Below are positions 3,195-18,244 of a stretch of 20,040 nt of DNA, in pieces. The DNA is taken from NCBI GenBank assembly GCA_023130215.1, contig JAGMAN010000019.1, forward strand, positions 1 through 20,040, in the 5' to 3' direction. Positions within the stretch are counted from its first letter, which is position 1, and every line of letters begins with the position of its first letter. The position numbers and the translations under genes are program-made. A model generated the notes under the pieces. The model had not been told where the DNA came from. It worked only from the letters and a program-made list of their open reading frames with translations, and did no database searches. The DNA is from a bacterium (lineage in GTDB: Bacteria > NPL-UPA2 > JAGMAN01).

Positions 3195-4487
3195 ATGTTT
3201 GAGTTTTTTCTATCTATTAAACACTTCTTGGACCAGATGAACATCCTATTCGCTGTCGGCCTGATACTACTCATTGGCTTCTTGGGCAGCAGAATAGCCC
3301 ACCGTTTTAGATTGCCGACAGTAAGCGGCTACATCTTAGTCGGACTGATAATAGGACCCTCTGTCCTCAAGCTTATTCCGGGGGAGATGGTTAGTGCTCT
3401 CACTCCGGTCACCAATGTAGCTCTCAGTTTGATTGCCTTAAGTATTGGAAGTCGATTGGGCATCGCAGGTCTGAAAAGATTGGGGAAAAGCATAGGTTAT
3501 ATTGCCTCCTCAGCAGCTATGGGAGCTTTTTTAGCCGTATTTATCTTAGTAGGAGTTCTCAGCTTCCTGTGGCCGGAGCTGGCTGGACTGCCATCCCGTT
3601 CAGAAGCTAACTTTTTTATAAACTTGATTACTATGGCTCTCCTCTTAGGAGCTATCTCCTCAGCTACCGCCCCGGCGGCTACAGTATCTGTTCTCAACCA
3701 ATATCGGTGTAGAGGACCATTGACCAGCACTCTGCTGGCGGTGGTGGCCATTGACGATGCTATTGCGGTGATTATCTTCGGAGTTGTCTGGACAGTCTGT
3801 AATGTCCTGATGAAAAGCATGGGGGAAATATCCTGGTTTTTGATGATAATTAGACCTTTCTGGGAGATTATAGCCTCAGTGAGCCTGGGTTTAGTGATGG
3901 GAGTCGGACTGCATTTTTTAGCCCGCAGAATGAGGGAGCGAAATGAATTTCTCATCGTTACCTTAGGTGCAGCTATGATTACTACCGGGTTGGCAATGAT
4001 GCTTCATCTCTCCTTTCTCTTAGCCAATATGGCTGCTGGTTTCATCCTTATCAATATGGCCAGGCGCAACTACCGGCTCTTCACCAGCATCAATATGGTT
4101 GAGGTGCCCATCTATGTAACTTTCTTCGTCATTGCGGGAGCAAATCTTCATCTTGGCACTCTTCTCAAGGTGGGAATATTAGGAATAGTCTATATACTGG
4201 CCCGGATAGGAGGTAAGATTTACGGTGCTAAATGGGGAGCCCTTAAGGCAGGAGCAGATGAGACGGTGCGGAAGTATTTAGGCTTGGGCCTGATTCCTCA
4301 GGCGGGAGTGGCTATCGGGTTGGTGCTATTGGTCCAGCAAAGTCCTGCCTTTGCATCTTTCAAGGCAGCCGTCACCAGCATCGTTCTGGCTGGAGTTGCC
4401 GTGAGTGAACTGATTGGTCCTCTTCTAACCAAAGTGGCCATTACCAGGGCAGGGGAAACCCATCCGAGACAGGGGGGTGCAACATGA
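3195..4487 (+). CDS. Cation:proton antiporter, CPA2 family (NapA/KefB-like membrane domain)
   Basis: A polytopic inner-membrane protein of about 430 residues with 12 or more hydrophobic segments, expected to exchange Na+ or K+ for H+. The N-terminal segment GFLGSRIAHRFRLPTVSGYI followed by LVGLIIGPSVL is the CPA2 first helix pair. The ion-binding core is visible as SSATAPAATVSVL and AVVAIDDAIAVIIFG. The Asp-Asp pair is typical of electrogenic exchangers. There is no C-terminal TrkA/RCK domain, unlike full KefB/KefC. The start is uncertain: TTG 3186, ATG 3195 and ATG 3237 are all in frame and none has a good ribosome binding site; I chose 3195. The stop overlaps the next gene's ATG (ATGA), so the two are coupled. 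Transported ion unknown. Confidence 0.85.
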   Translation: MFEFFLSIKHFLDQMNILFAVGLILLIGFLGSRIAHRFRLPTVSGYILVGLIIGPSVLKLIPGEMVSALTPVTNVALSLIALSIGSRLGIAGLKRLGKSIGYIASSAAMGAFLAVFILVGVLSFLWPELAGLPSRSEANFFINLITMALLLGAISSATAPAATVSVLNQYRCRGPLTSTLLAVVAIDDAIAVIIFGVVWTVCNVLMKSMGEISWFLMIIRPFWEIIASVSLGLVMGVGLHFLARRMRERNEFLIVTLGAAMITTGLAMMLHLSFLLANMAAGFILINMARRNYRLFTSINMVEVPIYVTFFVIAGANLHLGTLLKVGILGIVYILARIGGKIYGAKWGALKAGADETVRKYLGLGLIPQAGVAIGLVLLVQQSPAFASFKAAVTSIVLAGVAVSELIGPLLTKVAITRAGETHPRQGGAT

Positions 4488-5485
4488 TCTGTCCGAAGTG
4501 TGGAACTGAAAATTTAAAGGGAAAACTTCTCTGCTATAAGTGCGGAGCCAAATTACTTCAAGCCCCCGGGGAAGCTCCCCAGGTTGGCAAGAAGCCGGCC
4601 AGGAAGAGAAGATTTAAAGCTCTTTACTATCTCTTCGCCCTCATCTTCTCAGGAGTGATTTTCTGTATCATGCTCCAGAGGCCAGAGATGGAACCCCTGG
4701 AGGTCTCCCCTGAGGCTGCCAGGAGCTTAGAGCAGAAGCTCTATATGGTAGAGAGGGCAGCTTTGGCTAAAAAGCCCCTCAGGGTAGAAGTTAGCGAGGA
4801 TGAACTCAACTCTTTCGTTTCCCGGCAGTTCAGAGAACTAAAAGTGGATGAGGAATATGCCAGGAAGAACATAAAAGTGGATGATATCCAGCTCAGGATG
4901 GAGGAAGAGAAGCTAAAAAGCGTTGTTACCATGAAAGTAAAAGGAAAGCTGGTCTATGTCTCCCTGGCCGGGAAAGTGGCTTTAGTGAATAACAGTCTCA
5001 CCCTAAAGCCAGATGAGGTGAAGATTGGCAAATTGCCAGTGCCAGCCAAGACGGTCCAGCGGGCAATGAAACGGGTGGAGAAGAAGAGGGGCAGTCTCTC
5101 TTTCCTTGACTTTCCGGATGGGGTAAGGAGTATTAGAATAGAAGAAGGAAAACTTATTGTGGAGACGGAGATAGTCGCTCCGGTTAAAGAGAAGGCAGGG
5201 AGGGTTAAAGTGCCAGCGGTTGAAATACCAAAGAAAGAAGTTCCTGCCCCTAAGGAGGAACCAGAGAAGAGGGTCTTAACCGAGGAGGAGTTAGAAGAGC
5301 GAAGGAGGAGAATGGAAGAGAACGAAGCTAACTCCTGGCTTCAGGTAGGAGACAATTTCACTAACGTCGGGATGTACGATTCAGCCATTGAGTATTACCA
5401 AAAGGTGACGAACAAGTATCCGGAGTCAGAGCAGGCCAAAGAGGCAAGGCAAAGAATTGAGGAGATAAAGTCCAGGCTGGAATGA
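4484..5485 (+). CDS. Zinc-ribbon, single-pass membrane protein with C-terminal TPR-like module
   Basis: No named family is recognised over the full length of 333 residues. Residues 3-20 form a zinc ribbon (Cys3, Cys6, Cys17, Cys20). A basic stretch KKPARKRRFK precedes one transmembrane helix at about 46-64, so the ribbon should be cytoplasmic and the rest outside. Residues about 100-235 form a beta-rich domain beginning RVEVSEDELNSFVSRQF. It loosely resembles the LmeA/DUF2140-type lipid- or lipoprotein-binding folds; this is a guess from pattern. A Pro/Lys/Glu linker leads to residues 283-328, a TPR-like helix pair (NSWLQVGDNF...DSAIEYYQKV...KYPES) nearly identical to the end of the protease at 15863-17344. 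It starts within the antiporter stop and its own stop overlaps a downstream ATG. Confidence 0.8.
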   Translation: MICPKCGTENLKGKLLCYKCGAKLLQAPGEAPQVGKKPARKRRFKALYYLFALIFSGVIFCIMLQRPEMEPLEVSPEAARSLEQKLYMVERAALAKKPLRVEVSEDELNSFVSRQFRELKVDEEYARKNIKVDDIQLRMEEEKLKSVVTMKVKGKLVYVSLAGKVALVNNSLTLKPDEVKIGKLPVPAKTVQRAMKRVEKKRGSLSFLDFPDGVRSIRIEEGKLIVETEIVAPVKEKAGRVKVPAVEIPKKEVPAPKEEPEKRVLTEEELEERRRRMEENEANSWLQVGDNFTNVGMYDSAIEYYQKVTNKYPESEQAKEARQRIEEIKSRLE

Positions 5486-15578: not shown

Positions 15579-15863
15579 TTACCAAAGTGGCCGGAGTGGC
15601 GGAACTGGAAGACGCGCCGGATTCAAAATCCGGTGGGGCTTAAACCCCGTGAGGGTTCGACCCCCTCCTCCGGCACTACCCGTAGACAAAAAAATCATAA
15701 CTGTGAGGAGCAGTTCGTCGAATTTGGCTATCTCATCTTTATCGCTAGGCTTGTCTGTCATTTGCTTACACTCCAGCCCCCATAGCTTTAGGAATTCCTG
15801 CCTATACTCCTTGGCAAGAATTGTGAGATTATGGGAAAAGGCTTTTTGCTTACATATACCCAT
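15579..15863 (-). CDS. Small ORF coupled to the protease gene and running into tRNA-Leu (probably truncated)
   Basis: The ATG at 15863 overlaps the protease TGA (TGATG). About 62 residues follow with protein-like composition (MGICKQKAFSHNLTILAKEY, then RQEFLKLWGLECKQMTDKPS, then DKDEIAKFDELLLTVMIF). After that the frame becomes Gly/Arg/Pro-rich (GSAGGGGRTLTGFKP...) exactly where it enters tRNA-Leu in antisense. The genuine part is thus probably a gene whose 3' end was replaced at the tRNA junction, as expected for recombination at a tRNA 3' end. No family is recognised. It may be non-functional. Confidence 0.4.
   Translation of the reverse strand: MGICKQKAFSHNLTILAKEYRQEFLKLWGLECKQMTDKPSDKDEIAKFDELLLTVMIFLSTGSAGGGGRTLTGFKPHRILNPARLPVPPLRPLW
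15590..15675 (+). tRNA. tRNA-Leu (anticodon CAA)
   Basis: An 86-nt class II tRNA. The acceptor GCCGGAG (15590-15596) pairs with CTCCGGC (15668-15674), discriminator A15675, CCA not encoded. The anticodon stem-loop CCGGA-TTCAAAA-TCCGG gives CAA. A long variable arm (TGGGGCTTAAACCCC) identifies Leu. The T-arm is GAGGG-TTCGACC-CCCTC. Its last 12 bases recur at 17466-17477. Confidence 0.95.
15664..15675 (+). repeat. Candidate attachment site copy 1 (tRNA-Leu 3' end)
   Basis: CCTCCTCCGGCA, the last 12 bases of tRNA-Leu including the discriminator, is repeated exactly and in the same orientation at 17466-17477. Direct duplication of a tRNA 3' end is the hallmark of site-specific integration into a tRNA gene. 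Confidence 0.5.
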
Positions 15864-17344
15864 CACTTAGACTCTTTAGCCTCAATTTCTTTAATCCGCT
15901 TCTGGGCTTCTTGAGCCTGTCCGCTCTCTGGATACTTATCTATTACCTTCTGATAATGCTCAATCGCTGAATCGTTCATTCCGGCATTGGCGAAATTATT
16001 GGCTGCTTGAAGCCAGGAGTTAATTTCATCCCCTTCCTTCTTAGTCAACTTAGAGAGATTAGACTTTTCCGTATTCTTCCCTTCCCTGACTTGTTCTTCC
16101 AGCTCTTTTTTCAATCGTTTCAATTCTTTCTTCAGCTTATCCTTCTCGTCCTTTAATTCTTTCAATTTCTCTGCTTTTCCTTTTTGAAGTTCTGTCAAGT
16201 CCATTTGATAGTCTTTAGCGTTGATAAGGCCAACTTCATAGGCTGCGGCAAGAGCTTCTTTGCTTCTGGCAACATCTTCTTTATACCCCTGAGTTGTGAG
16301 TTTTCGTATAGCAGATTCCCTCTCAGAAATGTGACGAATCCTCCACTCCAAGCGTTTAATCCTCGTTTGAACAGGCCACCGATATGATACGATTTCCCCA
16401 ACAACATTAACGTCGAAAAACCAGCCCCGCTCTCCAGAACCATCATCGTAGGTATAACTGACAAGGTATCTTTGCTCATCTATCTTATCCGCCTGCCAAC
16501 CGAAAATGTGAACGCTTGGTTTTTTTTGCCTCATCTGGTCCCTGATGTAGTGTTCTACGTCGTCAAAAAACAGCTCAGGAATCTGTGGAGCTTCAAGGAG
16601 CAGACCTCTCGACCTTTTTGCTAACTCTATCGCTCTTTTTTCGTCCTCCCGCTGTATAGTCGGTGCTTTTTCTCGTGGAATTTTTGAAAATTCCTCCAAA
16701 GTCATTTTAGGTTTTGCATCTAACATACCCCTTACATAGTTTATAGGCACAGAGAAATTGAGATTCTGACCTAATACATCGGATAAAGTTGCTATACCAA
16801 TAACCTCCCCTTTCAAGTTAAAGACAGGACTACCGCTACTTCCTGGTGAAATCGGGGCACTTATTTGGTGAAGCTTATAACCAAAGTCAGTATTTCTTGT
16901 TTGTGACAATAATCCATCCGATATTGTGTTTTCTAACCCGTGAGGGTTCCCTATAACTACTACCTTTTCTCCTACTCTAACTTCATTAGAATTCCCAAGC
17001 TTAACAACAGGTAAATCAAACCCCTTTATCTTGAGAGCAGCTATATCTTTCCTTCCATCGCAATCTATTACAGATATATCTTCATATACATCTCCATTTT
17101 TTAGTTTTACCAAGGCAGGATAAGCATTTTCTATAACATGATAATTAGTAACAATAACGCCATCTTTTTTTACTATGAACCCACTCCCGAGACCAATCGC
17201 TTCATTGTTTTTAACTGTGGCAATAAGAACCACAGCCTTACCATATTTTTCCATAATTTCTGGTGGATTTAACTCATCTGCCCCAGAAGATCCCGAACAA
17301 AACATCAAGTATATCAAAATGCAGATTATCGATATCTTCCTCAT
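15863..17344 (-). CDS. HtrA-like trypsin-fold protease with C-terminal coiled coil and TPR-like module
   Basis: Secreted or envelope serine protease of 493 residues. Residues 1-22 are a signal peptide with Cys16 (not a canonical lipobox). The S1C protease domain spans about 30-205 with an intact triad: His69 (VTNYHVIENA), Asp100 (GRKDIAALKI) and Ser170 (SPGSSGSPVFNLKGEVIGIA). No PDZ domain follows. Instead there is an unrecognised domain of about 130 residues (YIRDQMRQKKPSVHIFGW... GWFFDVNVVGEIVSYRWPV), then Lys/Glu coiled coil (about 380-430), and a TPR-like unit at 442-487. That unit is near-identical to the end of the membrane protein at 4484-5485. The ATG has AGGAGGAGG upstream. The gene is AT-richer than its neighbours and lies in the tRNA-bounded interval, suggesting acquisition. 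Target unknown. Confidence 0.87.
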   Translation of the reverse strand: MRKISIICILIYLMFCSGSSGADELNPPEIMEKYGKAVVLIATVKNNEAIGLGSGFIVKKDGVIVTNYHVIENAYPALVKLKNGDVYEDISVIDCDGRKDIAALKIKGFDLPVVKLGNSNEVRVGEKVVVIGNPHGLENTISDGLLSQTRNTDFGYKLHQISAPISPGSSGSPVFNLKGEVIGIATLSDVLGQNLNFSVPINYVRGMLDAKPKMTLEEFSKIPREKAPTIQREDEKRAIELAKRSRGLLLEAPQIPELFFDDVEHYIRDQMRQKKPSVHIFGWQADKIDEQRYLVSYTYDDGSGERGWFFDVNVVGEIVSYRWPVQTRIKRLEWRIRHISERESAIRKLTTQGYKEDVARSKEALAAAYEVGLINAKDYQMDLTELQKGKAEKLKELKDEKDKLKKELKRLKKELEEQVREGKNTEKSNLSKLTKKEGDEINSWLQAANNFANAGMNDSAIEHYQKVIDKYPESGQAQEAQKRIKEIEAKESK

Positions 17345-17465
17345 ATTAGCCTCCTCCTAAACCAAAAAAGGGCAACCCTCACCCGCCAGTGCGCAGTTGC
17401 ACAGACAGAATATGCAGAAATCCAAACAATACCTGCTAAGGCAGGCTTACCTGATTTATTCAAGA

Positions 17466-17477
17466 CCTCCTCCGGCA
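17466..17477 (+). repeat. Candidate attachment site copy 2
   Basis: An exact 12-bp copy of the tRNA-Leu 3' end (CCTCCTCCGGCA), same strand. Five to seven bases upstream stands TTCAA, resembling the tRNA's TTCGA T-loop, so the copy may be a longer but decayed tRNA tail. With 15664-15675 it brackets the protease and the small ORF (about 1.8 kb). Confidence 0.5.
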
Positions 17478-17505
17478 GAAATTGACTGTAATTTCTTAGG
17501 AAATG

Positions 17506-17760
17506 CTATGCAAATGTTGCAACGGGGACCTGTCGCTTCTTCGTGAAACTCTTCCTGTGAATTTTGATCCTCTCGAGTTCGTGGAGTGTCTCCGCTTCCA
17601 GGTAACTCTCTCCACAATGAGGGCAACTAACAATCGGCACAGCCTGTATCACGAAGAAGTCATCACCCTTACCGTAGGCTCTAGCAATACGCCGTGTACG
17701 AGCGCCCCTTTTCCCACAAATATCGCACTTCCTGCTATCGTGTCTTTCCCTTCGTATCAT
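17506..17760 (-). CDS. YgiT-type zinc-finger protein (MqsA-like N-terminal domain), antitoxin-like
   Basis: An 84-residue protein. The first zinc pair is CDICGKRGA (Cys12, Cys15) and the second is CPHCGESYLEAETLHELERI (Cys46, Cys49), the arrangement of YgiT/MqsA N-terminal domains. The C-terminal HTH domain of true MqsA is absent. It follows the DUF4258 gene by 12 nt with GAGGGG as ribosome binding site, the standard DUF4258-YgiT gene pair. Such pairs are predicted toxin-antitoxin systems; whether this protein neutralises or represses its partner is inference. Confidence 0.85.
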   Translation of the reverse strand: MIRRERHDSRKCDICGKRGARTRRIARAYGKGDDFFVIQAVPIVSCPHCGESYLEAETLHELERIKIHRKSFTKKRQVPVATFA

Positions 17761-17772
17761 CTGAGCACCCCT

Positions 17773-18054
17773 CTATAACAGATAAACTGTGATTATCACC
17801 AGCTTCCCTGTGACTCCAAATTTAGCTACAAGCTCAACCTCGTCATTTCCTGCAGCAGTACCACGGAGCCTGTATTTCCACTCTCCAGTGTCCTTATCCT
17901 TCTGACGTTCTACGATTCTCCCAGTCAAAACTGCACTTTCAACATCATAAATCGTCAATTCATCCGCATCCATCTCCTCTTCGGCATGAAGTGTCATTAC
18001 ATAGTATCGTTTCTGGATGCAAAGTCGCATTCTGTCGAGTATTTGCTTGAACAA
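17773..18054 (-). CDS. DUF4258 domain protein, toxin-like partner of the YgiT-type zinc finger
   Basis: A 93-residue protein with the DUF4258 pattern: HAEEEMDADELTIYDVESAV, LTGRIVERQKD, GEWKYRLRGTAAGNDEVELV and a hydrophobic end KLVIITVYLL. The family (related to the RelE/BrnT-like small toxin superfamily by general fold prediction) usually precedes a YgiT-type zinc finger, as here. The TTG at 18054 is chosen because GGGAGG lies 8 bases upstream; an ATG at 18061 is out of frame. It lies just behind tRNA-Lys, in the accessory interval. Toxicity is inferred from gene-pair organisation, not shown. Confidence 0.82.
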   Translation of the reverse strand: MFKQILDRMRLCIQKRYYVMTLHAEEEMDADELTIYDVESAVLTGRIVERQKDKDTGEWKYRLRGTAAGNDEVELVAKFGVTGKLVIITVYLL

Positions 18055-18098
18055 GTCTCATGCCTCCCGATCTCTCATTATTAACACCCATTCTACAT

Positions 18099-18151
18099 AA
18101 CCAGTGGATTGACGAAGTTGGTGAATCCACCCAATTTGGAACCACTGGGTT
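18099..18151. repeat. Overlapping inverted repeats upstream of the DUF4258/YgiT pair
   Basis: CCAGTGG (18101-18107) pairs with CCACTGG (18142-18148), and GTGGATT (18104-18110) pairs with AATCCAC (18124-18130). The two share GTGG at 18104-18107, so the pairings are mutually exclusive in RNA. They lie between the tRNA-Lys 3' end and the toxin-like gene start, where an autoregulatory operator or attenuator would be expected. Confidence 0.45.
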
Positions 18152-18171
18152 CAGTGACTTCTCTTGTCAAG

Positions 18172-18244
18172 TGAGCCGCCTGGGGCTCGAACCCAGCACA
18201 CCCGGCTTAAAAGGCCGGTACTCTACCAGATGAGTTAGCGGCCC
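18172..18244 (-). tRNA. tRNA-Lys (anticodon TTT)
   Basis: On the minus strand the 5' acceptor GGGCCGC (18244-18238) pairs with GCGGCTC (18179-18173) and the discriminator is A; CCA is not encoded. The anticodon loop CTTTTAA gives TTT. The T-arm is CTGGG-TTCGAGC-CCCAG. It follows purA by 18 nt in the same direction and may be co-transcribed with it. Confidence 0.95.

Follow-up and report, generated by a model that had tools for sequence, protein, structure and literature searches.

Cis-mobilizable elements (CIMEs) are defined by att-like flanking repeats and by the lack of integration and transfer genes (PMC5704250). In Methylopumilus, fGI-2 shows a 20-bp repeat of tRNA-Lys that is found in many strains (PMC10872708). 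NBU1 and P4-type elements also integrate at tRNA 3' ends, but these encode their own integrase, whereas the tRNA-Leu segment described here has none. This segment lies in a window of 20,040 nucleotides (the whole stretch of DNA that was analysed), which belongs to a source genome of 1.01 Mb, in 136 contigs and 90% complete (G000). We give an about even chance to the reading that positions 15676-17477 are a CIME-like remnant, i.e., integrase-less and att-flanked, integrated at the 3' end of tRNA-Leu(CAA).

A direct repeat of the tRNA-Leu 3' end

The final 12 bases of tRNA-Leu(CAA), CCTCCTCCGGCA, are found a second time on the same strand, at a spacing of 1.8 kb. The locus comprises the following features.

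15590-15675, plus strand: tRNA-Leu(CAA), intact, putative integration target (Rfam; ARAGORN places the end at 15676)
15664-15675, plus strand: left copy of CCTCCTCCGGCA, tRNA 3' end, putative attL core (sequence match)
15676-15863, minus strand: small open reading frame, coupled to the protease stop (TGATG) and running antisense through the tRNA
15863-17344, minus strand: trypsin-like serine protease, 493 aa, putative cargo (domain searches, GC)
17466-17477, plus strand: right copy of CCTCCTCCGGCA, putative attR core, intergenic (sequence match)
17506-17760, minus strand: YgiT-type zinc finger gene (domain search)
17773-18054, minus strand: DUF4258 gene (domain search)
18171-18244, minus strand: tRNA-Lys(TTT), then purA; conserved limit of the variable interval on the right (relatives)

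The preliminary description had reported this direct repeat, with the discriminator included in the left copy. Both copies are indeed present at 15664-15675 and 17466-17477 in the same orientation, and the Rfam bounds of the tRNA (15590-15675) make the left one terminate on the discriminator base. Identity between the copies spans exactly 12 bp, with significant homology beyond it on neither side. A whole-genome search found CCTCCTCCGGCA twice in the source genome, both times at this locus. The presence of just two copies, in the same orientation and with the left one ending on the discriminator, favours integration. So does the position of the distal copy, which is intergenic and lies at a composition boundary, between the AT-rich protease gene and the host-like YgiT gene. 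The sequence directly to its right is GAAATTGACTGTAATTTC, and the junction of a hypothetical circle would read ...TTATTCAAGA-CCTCCTCCGGCA-CTACCCGTAG... The distal copy shows no tRNA-like structure and no Rfam match. The lack of homology beyond the 12 bp and of any Rfam match led us to reject a longer, decayed copy of the tRNA upstream of this repeat.

The YgiT and DUF4258 genes, on the right of this copy, form a toxin-antitoxin-like pair that lies outside the repeats and within the variable interval (17506-18054). A link between this pair and the same 12-mer was ruled out, as there is no third copy in 17478-18170.

Contents of the bracketed segment

Positions 15676-17465 hold one clear gene, the protease (minus strand, 15863-17344). 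It consists of an N-terminal signal or lipobox-like stretch, a Trypsin_2 domain (E 7e-29), a charged coiled-coil-like stretch and a TPR_6 tail. The catalytic H, D and S motifs are as in HtrA proteases, and the catalytic domain matches the structures of HtrA1 and DegP. The trypsin-like catalytic domain is thus what the protein has in common with HtrA/Deg proteases; these carry a C-terminal PDZ domain, whereas it has the coiled coil and the TPR_6 tail instead, and a domain search gave no PDZ match. Its score against TIGR02037 (140.7, for a cut-off of 416.2) does not reach that of a full-length HtrA/Deg family member. Of 22 window genes examined, this one is the lowest in GC content (40.1%) and in GC3 (37%), to be compared in GC with 48.7% in waaA and 49.8% in the YgiT gene.

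The closest match to the protease outside the source genome has 45% identity over the catalytic part, and no orthologue was found among the relatives. Its tail resembles part of a resident gene encoding a zinc-ribbon protein (4484-5485), with 51% identity in protein and 76% in DNA over 117 bp, and related TPR-like C-terminal tails are also present in other genomes of the order. The protease gene is therefore home-grown, at least in part, and the likeness of its tail to a resident gene disfavours integration. Plasmid matches to the protease were set aside: those listed cover the catalytic domain alone, at 34-38% identity. A viral origin is unsupported by scans of viral contigs, which are sensitive to close relatives only: no contig was found to encode the protease or the YgiT protein, or to contain the tRNA-Leu sequence. 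Protease homologues were not found beside tRNAs in the seven short loci tested.

Family searches revealed no integrase or transfer gene within the segment, in agreement with the absence of an integrase that had been claimed from the start. This absence, and that of recognised arm sites, disfavours integration. On the other side, fragments of tyrosine integrases occur on other contigs of the genome (partial PF00589 matches at G000:C107:4657, C102:29010 and C105:1791). They favour integration and are possibly the remains of a past source of recombinase.

The segment had also been described as holding the protease and a small open reading frame whose end runs into the tRNA. The protease stands. 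The small frame, with its ATG at 15863, crosses the tRNA in antisense and cannot be taken as an established gene: it has a weak match to phrog_29959, a phage family of 35 aa (E 7e-4), no credible homologue was found, and it is probably not a full gene. In the hypothetical circle it would end three codons beyond the core, which is compatible with a circular form and too weak to count.

The locus in related genomes

We compared the locus with two genomes of the same genus (G001 and G002) and one of the same order (G003). The frame waaA, tRNA-Leu, variable part, tRNA-Lys, purA is conserved, and its contents differ between G000, G001 and G003. Between tRNA-Leu and tRNA-Lys-purA, G001 has a Gfo/Idh/MocA oxidoreductase and G003 a 446-residue protein without a Pfam match. 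In G002, a DUF3604/sulfatase-like region follows tRNA-Leu up to the end of the contig, and tRNA-Lys-purA are on another contig. The gene upstream of tRNA-Leu, waaA, is kept in G001 and G002. A conserved frame filled with different genes in G000, G001 and G003 favours integration. Presence of the protease at this locus in all relatives had been held to be at odds with an integrated element; it is absent from 3 of 3 genomes that keep all or part of the frame, and the YgiT gene is likewise in none of them at this locus.

Other observations in these genomes point the opposite way. None of the three provides an empty site, all carrying other genes there, and a purA-based scan of genome contigs for a close relative found none (best identity ~59%). 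A second example of the 15676-17477 segment was not found in the relatives either, and these two results disfavour integration. A second tRNA-Leu end beside the cargo is also absent from G001, G002 and G003, at up to 2 mismatches. The interval therefore varies in these genomes in the absence of a tRNA-Leu repeat, so its turnover needs no recombination at the tRNA end, which again disfavours integration.

The genome of G001 offers a parallel at another tRNA. There, the 46 bp of tRNA-Arg(TCG) that run from the anticodon region up to the 3' end are repeated exactly and in the same orientation, at positions 1905-1950 and 3281-3326 of locus L184 (G001:C68). Between the repeats lie 1.33 kb, in which a VapB/VapC pair is seen and no integrase. 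Integrase-free, tRNA-bracketed segments thus occur in the genus, which raises the prior for the tRNA-Leu case and favours integration there. This unmistakable case is the strongest support for the CIME-like reading, although an indirect one. The distal tRNA-Arg copy adjoins a larE-like gene, whose frame now reads into it.

Two further kinds of repeats were seen near tRNA genes in these genomes. In G003, the intact tRNA-Ala(CGC) gene is followed, after ~133 bp, by a 20-bp stump of its 3' end (locus L210, G003:C80, 9760-9985). G001 has dispersed, palindrome-rich, MITE-like repeats (GCAGCACTTTAGTG, TTTCACCGC) near several tRNA genes (L040, ~1390-1560; L184, 3487-3601; L189, 29-120).

Frequency of short repeats of tRNA ends

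The main alternative is that the GGAGGAGG-containing 12-mer at 17466 arose by coincidence, that the genes of the spacer were replaced by some other recombination, and that there is no element. We regard this as a serious contender, at rather less than an even chance. With both strands counted, a first-order Markov model predicts 0.24 copies of the 12-mer per genome; for 2 kb of a single strand, it predicts 0.0002. The observed background is higher: outside detected tRNAs, eight genomes of the same phylum (~9.4 Mb) have 9 copies, i.e., ~0.96 per Mb, or ~0.001 per 2 kb of downstream sequence on a single strand, which speaks for coincidence. The six background copies that were read in context all fall within long open frames. 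The match studied here is intergenic, at the composition boundary, on the right strand and anchored exactly at the discriminator, which speaks against it.

We then measured the longest exact match ending at a tRNA 3' end, for 104 tRNAs of G000-G003 (up to 5 kb on either side) and for 92 tRNAs from unrelated loci, with 588 control comparisons (complement, other strand, reversed region). Among all these tRNAs, anchored matches of at least 12 bp were found only for 2 of the 104, namely tRNA-Leu here and tRNA-Arg in G001; they were found in 0/588 controls, where the maximum was 11 bp. This result favours integration over coincidence. Unanchored matches, however, reached 12-14 bp in the controls, as coincidence would have it. 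The segment itself contains such a case: a 13-bp exact repeat of tRNA-Leu (15646-15658 and 16937-16949), within the protease coding sequence on the codons of the GNPHG motif, is almost certainly coincidental. It indicates that such short matches also arise by chance and, together with the shortness of the 12-bp repeat, disfavours integration. The turnover of the interval in relatives devoid of repeats is also as expected from coincidence. The preliminary description had called a chance match very unlikely. Its probability is indeed small, roughly 0.001 per tRNA, but with 19 detected tRNAs this amounts to roughly a few percent per genome, which is not negligible and leaves room for coincidence.

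A last explanation, which we consider improbable, sees in the distal copy what is left of a tRNA gene, duplicated or more ancient, or of a larger island that came before, with the protease coming later by a separate history: stumps do occur in the order (as with tRNA-Ala in G003) and the tail of the protease has relatives among resident genes, but the distal copy has no tRNA-like homology past the 12 bp and no Rfam match.

Proposed integration at tRNA-Leu

If the segment is a CIME-like remnant, a tyrosine recombinase, presumably supplied in trans or lost since then, would have inserted a small circular form at the 3' end of tRNA-Leu, by recombination through a core no longer than 12 bp. Integration would have rebuilt tRNA-Leu, and the displaced original 3' end would have remained at 17466-17477. 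The cargo would be the protease, and the site would lie within a tRNA-Leu/tRNA-Lys interval whose contents turn over between species. We infer the integration by a recombinase, the direction of the events and the mobilisation in trans. The original view of a tRNA-integrated element finds partial support: an integrase is indeed lacking from the segment and the protease is absent from the locus in the relatives, while a 12-bp repeat is short and an empty site was not found. We judge that chance matches per tRNA and genuine elements with short repeats come at comparable rates, and the weights that we give to the three readings are a matter of judgement too. The anchoring, the intergenic position and the step in composition tilt the balance slightly towards integration. 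A broader proposal seems unlikely, namely that integrase-free cassettes of 1-2 kb, each with one or two cargo genes such as the protease or vapBC, form a population in the genus and that a trans-acting recombinase moves them into various tRNA genes.

Comparison with known elements

Were integration correct, the segment would be a very small hitch-hiking element in a ~1-Mb genome and a further example of an already known type of element. Along with vapBC in G001, it would hint that minimal cassettes use tRNA genes without encoding an integrase. Were the repeat due to chance, the locus would measure how much trust a 12-bp tRNA-end repeat alone deserves as an att site, and the 46-bp repeat of G001 gives the picture of a safe case. 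The latter segment resembles the one at tRNA-Leu in being from the same genus, 1.3 kb long, integrase-free and bracketed by the 3' part of a tRNA; it differs by a repeat that is almost four times longer, from the anticodon region, and by its tRNA and cargo.

The variable cargo behind one tRNA that characterises additive flexible genomic islands is seen in G000, G001 and G003 (and in G002 behind tRNA-Leu); the tRNA-end repeats that recur in the relatives of such islands were not seen in G001, G002 and G003. As with fGI-2 of Methylopumilus (PMC10872708), we find a streamlined genome in which variable cargo follows a tRNA and the tRNA end is directly repeated, whereas the repeat here consists of 12 bp of tRNA-Leu in one genome. 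Compared with CIMEs, the segment has just 1.8 kb, a 12-bp core and a putative mobilisation, with no related ICE or IME known here. It resembles them in a content free of integration and transfer genes, and the 12-bp repeats of a tRNA 3' end around 15676-17477 would be its att-like brackets.
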